Part shown: positions 1 through 20,519 of the stretch, piece after piece | Layout of the letters: each line of letters begins with the position of its first letter | Numbering within the stretch: the first letter of the stretch is position 1 | Virus record (IMG/VR): IMGVR_UViG_3300050118_000099 | Location: 1 to 22,040 of that record | Source: a virus | DNA length: 22,040 nucleotides | Direction: 5' to 3' (one strand) | Program-made: the position numbers and the translations under genes | Notes under the pieces: generated by a model | The model's input: only the letters and a program-made list of their open reading frames with translations | Databases searched by the model: none | Told to the model about the DNA's origin: nothing

Positions 1-168
1 TACGGTCCGAACTCGGCAAACACCTCGGCTCACGAGAACGACCTATTCAACTTCGATTCGAGCGACGACATCAACTTCCAATTCGGGATGCAGTGCACGA
101 AATGCACGACCCCCTCGGCAGTGTGGGATATAGGCGGGACTACTAGAGCTGTTTCGCAATTGGTGTAG
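1..168 (+). pseudogene. 5' part of interrupted LamG-like virion/surface protein (partial at window edge)
   Basis: Frame 1 is open from the window edge to a TAG at 166-168. It encodes the N-terminal side of a concanavalin/LamG-like beta-sandwich; the segments FQFGMQC and AVWDIGG resemble bacterial LamG-like proteins in which such a stretch precedes a V-P-x-x...W-H-H motif. That continuation lies in the same frame beyond the repeat at 145-258 (VPW, then NEWHHIV). The last eight codons and the stop belong to the repeat, so this is one gene split by an insertion. The true N-terminus is outside the window. The domain call is from pattern memory; the shared frame is seen directly. Confidence 0.65.
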
Positions 169-258
169 ACCGGAACGATAGGCCTTTTCGTGGTTTTCTT
201 CCAAGGAAAACCACTCCTCACGAACTTTTTGGGACCACAGTAATTGCGAAACCGCTCT
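145..258. repeat. 114-bp palindromic (MITE/REP-like) element inside a coding sequence
   Basis: The ends are 17-bp inverted repeats with one mismatch: AGAGCTGTTTCGCAATT at 145-161 and AATTGCGAAACCGCTCT at 242-258. Inside, 190-214 forms a second hairpin (GTGGTTTT / AAAACCAC), extended by TTCGTG / CACGAA. The length is 114 bp, exactly 38 codons. Both gene fragments are in frame 1, and joining 144 to 259 gives an uninterrupted GGTTNVPW reading. No convincing target-site duplication flanks it. It brings in-frame stops at 166 (TAG) and 241 (TAA). It encodes nothing, so it would need a transposase supplied elsewhere. Confidence 0.75.
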
Positions 259-1368
259 AACGTGCCGTGGACGGCCACCGGGGTCACGCAGGAGTTTGCC
301 GCAAACGAATGGCACCATATCGTCAAAGAGGACCACTGGGTTCTTTCGGAACTCACCACGAAACCGTGCAGTGGTTTTCCGTGCCTTTATTGGACAAAGC
401 TCATACTCGATGGGAATCCGCATAATTTGCAGCAAGGCGGTGCTTGCGGACAGACTTCGTCCTCACCTTATAAAAACGGCTGCACGTTCAAGGCGGACAC
501 TTTGGAGGCTGGCTTTGGGTCCCTGGTAGCCAACCAGTTCCAGATCGACGGAGGACCCGTCAGCTCGCCGGTGTCACTCAACGATACTTTGGATCAAGCG
601 ACCTTCACGGCCTTCTACGACCCCTCCGCCCCATCCACGGCCGCGTTCACGATCAGTCCGCTTACGGCCAACCTGCCCCTCACGGTGACTGCTGCAGCGC
701 CCACGCTGACCAGCGTCACGCTCACCGCGGCCGGAGGGGCAACTTCGATGGTTGTGGGCGGGACGCTGCAATTCACAGCCTTCTGCCACTACTCTGATGG
801 CTCGGCCACGAATTGCCAAGTAGCTGACACACACGGCAACGCAGTTACTTCGTGGGTCACGTCCGACCCGTCGCAGGCTGCGGTCGGCGCAGTGGGCTCA
901 GCTAACCCAGGCCTCGTGACCGCGGTGGGAGCCGGGGCGCCGAGTATCCAGGCATACGTCGGCGCGATACAAAGCGCGGCCTACGGGCTGACCATCTCCA
1001 GTCCCGCGGTAACGCTCACGGCAGTGTCGCTGGCGACTACCGGCGGGGTCACGGGCCTGTTTGTCGGCAGCACCAATCAGCTCATCGCCACCTGCGTTTA
1101 TTCGGATTCATCGACGACCAACTGCACGGCTGCCGACAGCCACGGGAATAAGGCTTCGACCTATGCCAGCTCGAGCACTGGCCACGCGACGGTGAACGCG
1201 AGCACCGGCCTGGTCACTGGCGTGGGCGCGGGCACGACGAATCTGACGGCCCACGCCGGCAGCTTTACCAGCACAGCGATCACGCTCACGGTACTGGCGG
1301 TACCGACAGGCTTATACACGATCACCATTACGGGCCCGGTTACTTTCAGTGGATCGGTCAAATTCTGA
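244..1368 (+). CDS. 3' part of interrupted LamG-like + BIG2-repeat protein
   Basis: This open frame continues the gene broken at 145-258. Its first possible start, TTG 244, lies inside the repeat and has no clear ribosome site; GTG 262 is the first start codon beyond it, and the first in-frame ATG is at 748. Residues 1-130 finish the LamG-like sandwich (NEWHHIV, LILDGNPHN, NQFQIDGG). Residues about 151-252 and 254-352 are two BIG2-type Ig-like repeats sharing a C-x-YSD-S-x-TNC-x-AD-x-HGN pattern. The tail is a short beta-rich end. Such proteins usually sit on virions or cell surfaces and bind glycans. The stop overlaps the next ATG (TGATG), so it is the first gene of a coupled cluster. Whether it is still translated is unclear. 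Confidence 0.6.
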   Translation: MRNRSNVPWTATGVTQEFAANEWHHIVKEDHWVLSELTTKPCSGFPCLYWTKLILDGNPHNLQQGGACGQTSSSPYKNGCTFKADTLEAGFGSLVANQFQIDGGPVSSPVSLNDTLDQATFTAFYDPSAPSTAAFTISPLTANLPLTVTAAAPTLTSVTLTAAGGATSMVVGGTLQFTAFCHYSDGSATNCQVADTHGNAVTSWVTSDPSQAAVGAVGSANPGLVTAVGAGAPSIQAYVGAIQSAAYGLTISSPAVTLTAVSLATTGGVTGLFVGSTNQLIATCVYSDSSTTNCTAADSHGNKASTYASSSTGHATVNASTGLVTGVGAGTTNLTAHAGSFTSTAITLTVLAVPTGLYTITITGPVTFSGSVKF

Positions 1369-12901: not shown

Positions 12902-13009
12902 CCCCGGATTTCCTGTCGAGGTTGGTGGCGTTGTCGAACCTCATGCGGCTTTCCTTAAAGAAAGCCGCACACGCGGCCCTGTCTGGTGCTGCGTAACAGG
13001 AAATCCGGG
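12902..13009 (+). repeat. Palindromic intergenic element, copy 1
   Basis: About 108 bp bounded by CCCCGGATTTCCTG and CAGGAAATCCGGG, with a central hairpin GCGGCTTTCCTTAAAGAAAGCCGC. Three more copies are at 13124-13230 (opposite orientation), 18127-18233 and 20355-20464. All share the outer inverted repeats and the central hairpin, while the arms between them vary. It is non-coding and resembles REP/MITE-type host repeats. It lies in the 466-bp gap between the portal and scaffold-like genes. Confidence 0.85.
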
Positions 13010-13123: not shown

Positions 13124-13230
13124 CCCGGATTTCCTGTACGCGGCTTCACCGATGGTCGCGTGTACGGCTTTCTGTAAGGAAAGCCGCATGAAGTTCGTTG
13201 ACCTCACGAAGCCCCGCAGGAAATCCGGGG
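13124..13230 (-). repeat. Palindromic intergenic element, copy 2 (inverted)
   Basis: This copy runs in the opposite direction to the other three: its reverse complement starts CCCCGGATTTCCTG and contains GCGGCTTTCCTTACAGAAAGCC. With copy 1 it makes a head-to-head pair spanning the portal/scaffold gap. A long open frame reads through it into the scaffold-like gene from 13152, but that extension is simply repeat sequence. Confidence 0.8.
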
Positions 13231-18057: not shown

Positions 18058-18126
18058 GACAGGGTCGTGGAATCCGTACGGCATGGTATGCGGGTTGAGT
18101 ACACCGCAGGTCCCGCCACTCCGCTA

Positions 18127-18233
18127 CCCCGGATTTCCTGTCGGACTTAGTGAGATTAGCAGACTTCCTGCGGCTTTCCTTGAAGAAAGCCGCACACGGG
18201 TCCATCTTTGGTGCCGTGCGGTAGGAAATCCGG
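18127..18233 (+). repeat. Palindromic intergenic element, copy 3
   Basis: CCCCGGATTTCCTG at the left end, an imperfect TAGGAAATCCGG at the right end, and the central hairpin GCGGCTTTCCTTGAAGAAAGCCGC. Similarity to copy 4 extends beyond the element: ACCGCAGG before it (18103) and CGCTCCGGTCGGGATGACA after it (18236-18254), so copies 3 and 4 share about 150 bp. It lies between the genes ending at 18057 and starting at 18293. Confidence 0.85.
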
Positions 18234-18292
18234 ACCGCTCCGGTCGGGATGACAATTCTTTACTTAACTAAGGCACTCAAGGAGCTTGATCG

Positions 18293-20320: not shown

Positions 20321-20354
20321 AAACCGTGAAACCGCAGGTCCTTCCACTGCGCTA

Positions 20355-20464
20355 CCCCCGGATTTCCTGTCGGCCGCGGTGGGATCAGCGAACTTCATGC
20401 GGCTTTCCTCAAAGAAAGCCGCACACATGGCCGTTGTTGGCGCCGCGCAGTAGGAAATTCGGGG
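20355..20464 (+). repeat. Palindromic intergenic element, copy 4
   Basis: CCCCCGGATTTCCTG at the left end, TAGGAAATTCGGGG at the right end, and the central hairpin GCGGCTTTCCTCAAAGAAAGCCGC. It is flanked by the same ACCGCAGGTC (20331) and CGCTCCGGTCGGGATGACA (20467-20485) as copy 3. It lies 56 bases before the start of the next gene. Confidence 0.85.
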
Positions 20465-20519
20465 TTCGCTCCGGTCGGGATGACAAATTGGTTTGAGCAT
20501 TTGAGCGACAGGACACTCA

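Follow-up and report, generated by a model that had tools for sequence, protein, structure and literature searches.

A palindromic element of an acidobacterial host repeat family interrupts a LamG-like gene of a temperate phage

A gene for a LamG-like/Ig-like protein is interrupted by a palindromic element, 114 bp net, near the start of the window, i.e. the whole stretch of 22,040 nucleotides of the IMG/VR viral record IMGVR_UViG_3300050118_000099 that we analysed. We consider it very probable that the 112 bp at window 146-257 are a MITE of a family belonging to the phage host, pasted by a host transposase into a TA of the phage gene, with truncation of the encoded protein. A recent MITE-like insertion was one of the explanations offered in the preliminary description, and it is the one sustained by a related prophage, in which the empty site is resolved to the nucleotide, together with many copies in the host genome. 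Such a transposon insertion is an ordinary event of a known kind, though documented unusually well here. For this host MITE within a temperate phage, the genome of the host, the allele lacking the insertion and the family of origin are all known.

An imperfect inverted repeat TAGAGC..GCTCTA, starting with TAGAGCTGTTTCGCAATT and ending with AATTGCGAAACCGCTCTA, spans window 144-259. Its arms (144-171 and 232-259, 28 nt each) are 82% complementary, and its fold beats those of shuffled sequences (z = -4.9; none of 200 shuffles was as good), giving the short element with terminal inverted repeats that is typical of MITEs. The longest open frame through the element has 38 codons, and within its 112 bp there is no transposase coding capacity. 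The likely unit, 146-257, makes up the 114 bp net together with one duplicated TA, so that excision of 144-257, 145-258 or 146-259 leads to an identical joint. The preliminary description had placed a 114-bp palindrome splitting the gene here, and the arms, the fold and the two gene halves, both in frame 0, confirmed it; it had also stated that no duplication is evident, thereby overlooking the TA copies at the two ends (Table 1). Removal of 145-258 restores the continuous GGTTNVPW junction that it had described (joined WDIGGTT/NVPWTATG), and the rest of the frame is without a stop. The window begins inside the gene, whose 5′ end is absent from it, and the reading frame, which has begun before position 1, extends to 1368.

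Table 1. Coordinates of the element, of the interrupted gene and of related loci.
Feature	Position	Strand	Basis
5′ part of interrupted LamG-like/Ig-like phage gene, start missing	1..143	+	92.3% nucleotide identity, gapless, to C94 prophage gene; protein homologues in 5 sister phages
Left TA target dinucleotide copy	144..145	.	sequence; TA ends in most host copies
MITE copy, 112 bp	146..257	+	outer inverted repeats of ~28 bp and inner hairpin GTGGTTTTC/GAAAACCAC; fold; host copies
In-frame TAG supplied by element	166..168	+	sequence, frame reading
In-frame TAA supplied by element	241..243	+	sequence, frame reading
Right TA target dinucleotide copy	258..259	.	sequence; empty site in prophage C94
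3′ part of interrupted LamG-like/Ig-like gene	260..1368	+	C94 match; Pfam Big_2 domain near end
Capsid-relative loci (G113, G060, G136, G177, G031, G159, G202, G237)	L203-L210		

A capsid search of the host family led to contig C94 of the Acidobacteriaceae MAG palsa_350 (G001), whose capsid is 100% identical to that of the window. C94 is 87 kb long and its phage block, at roughly 27-71 kb, contains a DUF1376 gene, relatives of the window portal-like and capsid genes and a weak terminase match. On the left the block is bordered by bacterial genes for an outer-membrane barrel protein, a copper amine oxidase and an amino-acid permease, and on the right by those for a short-chain dehydrogenase and a DUF255/thioredoxin protein. 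A close relative of the window phage is thus integrated as a prophage in C94, and the identical capsid together with the flanking bacterial genes identifies a soil acidobacterium (Acidobacteriaceae, palsa_350) as the host for this uncultured phage group. Relatives of the window capsid, with 29-92% identity, are also present in eight further host-family genomes (Table 1).

The search for uninterrupted homologues proposed in the preliminary description was answered by C94, in which the LamG-like gene is uninterrupted and open for 733 codons. Window 1-143 corresponds to L212:19134-19276, i.e. window 143 aligns to L212 19276, and window 259 onward aligns from L212 19278. A homologue not joining at 144/259 had been named as an outcome that would speak against an insertion; it was tested for and was absent, since C94 joins window 143 and 259 exactly. 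This is the clean empty site in a relative that a MITE insertion calls for, and since the flanks join exactly, 114 bp were added at this point. In five sister-phage contigs the protein is uninterrupted across the joint as well, with 57-59% identity over the aligned protein, and the alignment with the L004 protein is gapless at the joint. The empty DNA of C94 reads ACGACCAACGTG, the window ACTACT[..]AACGTG. TA stands on both sides of the element in the window, but the nearest empty allele has CCA rather than CTA; a TA target would call for a T in place of the C at this synonymous site in the ancestor of the window, which is likely, and the TA duplication is therefore suggested subject to one assumed C/T difference.

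In its present orientation the element does not leave the gene frame open. The product is truncated because a TAG and a TAA are put in frame (Table 1), and with the element present the translation of the visible frame ends at codon 56. The insertion is the sole stop or frameshift defect in the ~418 codons compared with C94, and dN/dS against C94 is 0.07 upstream of the insertion, 0.15 just downstream and 0.19 over the whole stretch. The gene has evolved under purifying selection, is otherwise intact and was probably in working order until recently, so that the insertion is probably recent; it would have led to a loss of the gene function. For the 5′ part of the gene (window 1-600) there is a nucleotide match with the C94 prophage but none with sister phages, which elsewhere are >90% identical; we regard the gene as a swapped allele, perhaps an adsorption module.

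The preliminary description had suggested looking for the element in the host genome, where dozens of diverged copies were in fact found. BLAST returned 44 matches in palsa_350 that share 75-93% identity with the window copy (at most 90% where full-length), the arm pattern matched 149 times against 0 for the reversed-pattern control, and an HMM profile picked out 94 non-overlapping segments in the palsa_350 stretches that were scanned. With pieces split by another repeat joined and partial copies included, we estimate that there are roughly 80 elements, i.e. the many dispersed genomic copies expected of a MITE. The absence of any other copy in related genomes, named beforehand as a result that would tell against the claim, was thus tested and did not occur. 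TA is found at both outer ends of 21 of the 50 full copies, at one end of 25 and at neither end of 4. The window copy is ~90% identical to the nearest subfamily consensus, so that its direct source copy was not seen. Among the 250 host-family genomes sampled, only one besides palsa_350 has copies, and these are weaker; most matches on genome contigs outside palsa_350 comprise a single 18-base arm and were discarded as chance. A scan of other viral contigs with the exact arm pattern found no copies (an arm match in L003 lacks a second arm and was judged to be chance), phage and plasmid records gave no credible match, and a literature search found no report of this palsa_350 family. The prophage itself carries a diverged relative of the MITE at L212:10764-10877 (C94:30764-30877). 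At C94:30764 there is a length difference of about 114 bp, with sister phages G252 and G254 the shorter, and the flanks are too diverged from C94 for the ends of the difference to be read.

As to how the element moved, the simplest model would be a transposase acting on its inverted ends with a TA target, as its TA ends indicate. Tc1/mariner/IS630-type and some IS5-group enzymes target TA or related sites. We read the element as a non-autonomous MITE of a family native to the Acidobacteriaceae host of the phage; a host-encoded transposase, possibly TA-targeting and of Tc1/mariner/IS630-like or IS5-group type, would recognise the inverted ends and insert the element at a TA of the phage gene, probably during the prophage state or during replication of the phage in the host, and duplication of the TA would give the 114 bp net. 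The parent insertion sequence would be expected to end in TAGAGCGGTTTCRCA. The few family models applied to palsa_350, a fragmented MAG, and to G202 turned up neither an autonomous element nor a transposase whose ends match, and neither the DDE_3, DDE_Tnp_1_2, IS630, DDE_Tnp_1 and Y1 models nor a search for paired element ends 0.35-4.5 kb apart gave a convincing parent. DDE_3 had no match in G001; the IS630 model matched weakly, below the cut-off, four times there and once in G202, and none of these loci has matching ends. This absence weighs little, because draft MAGs often lose such elements, and we do not assign the element to the IS630/Tc1-mariner-derived MITEs.

The net length of 3 × 38 nucleotides had raised the question of selection for a frame-neutral length, as in Rickettsia palindromic elements, with the element residing in proteins as a 38-residue insert. 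The antisense consensus does have one frame open over all 38 codons. However, the present orientation brings the two in-frame stops, the full copies have net lengths from 102 to 116 (114 in 27 of 50), and the 31 of 50 that are divisible by three reflect this mode. Of 20 consensus-length copies, 10 keep this antisense frame open, where a simulation of neutral substitution predicts 13.6, which rejects selection for an open frame. Nor is a Pfam domain spanned by an element in any of the ten long frames that we tested through copies: four of the ten have Pfam domains, with the element upstream of them in all four. We thus find this explanation very improbable. Antisense frame 2 is open in 9 copies against 3.0 expected, an excess that may be due to the shared ancestry of the GCAATT subfamily. 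Since the commonest family length is 114, a typical copy in a gene would keep the frame; the 38-codon length is inherited and not chosen, and its being a multiple of three is chance.

It had also been proposed that the element is removed from the mRNA, like an intron, or skipped by the ribosome, as in the bypass of T4 gene 60, so that the protein would be left whole. The joined protein is indeed perfect, with nothing missing, but a clean transposon insertion predicts the same joined protein. An Rfam search for an intron or ribozyme gave no match, the take-off and landing codons are unmatched (ACT at 142-144 before the element, TCT at 256-258 at its end), and the host genome carries the family at dozens of further dispersed sites, all of which makes such a rescue scarcely credible. 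An assembly chimera of phage and host repeats might be suspected in a metagenome-derived viral record with a high-copy host repeat, but it is just as implausible, given that both sides keep matching the same prophage gene, that the joint is base-exact with TA ends, that no identical host copy was found (best full-length match 90%), and that a chimera would not resume the same gene 114 bp on.

Besides the inserted MITE, the window holds four copies of a 107-bp palindrome (CCCGGATTTCCTG..GCGGCTTTCC..GGAAAGCCGC..CAGGAAATCCGGG), at 12902-13008, 13125-13230 (minus strand), 18127-18233 and 20356-20462, all in or beside intergenic gaps. Some or all of them are missing from sister phages, and several from the C94 relative; the presence of the repeat varies among phages with 91-94% identity. 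In palsa_350 this repeat also sits inside MITE copies (L051, L052, L054-L056), which supports the assignment of the host and shows that these phages receive repeats of more than one host family. A longer repeat, GCAGGTCCTTCCACTGCGCTAC..TTCGCTCCGGTCGGGATGACA, encloses two of the 107-bp copies, at window 18103-18260 and 20331-20490; at the second of these sites C94 has kept the outer repeat and the inner one is absent. It is conceivable, though we put it forward only tentatively, that temperate phages of these soil acidobacteria carry the two host palindromic families, MITE and 107-bp, which would transpose into phage genomes often enough to differ among phages 91-94% identical, and so would spread between host species. 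For repeat families whose movements are difficult to date in draft genomes of acidobacteria, phage genomes in any case offer a record of recent transposition.

With the REP/REPIN elements, which RAYT (Y1) transposases mobilise, the element shares the form of an extragenic palindrome, the inner hairpin and the high copy number, but it has long terminal inverted repeats ending in TA; palsa_350 has seven Y1 transposase matches and an element copy adjoins only one of these loci (L073). Rickettsia palindromic elements are likewise palindromes of about 100-150 bp with one open frame in one orientation (PMC10969869); they reside in frame in coding sequence, whereas the window copy stops its gene with two stops, no tested copy lies within a Pfam domain, and the family bears no sign of open-frame selection. 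Prokaryotic MITEs (reviewed in PMC10969869) are also short and non-coding, with inverted terminal repeats and TA ends, reach high copy number in one genome and insert into foreign elements. The present case differs from them in that the parent insertion sequence was not found, that a temperate phage gene was hit, and that a second palindromic repeat family inserts into the MITE copies.
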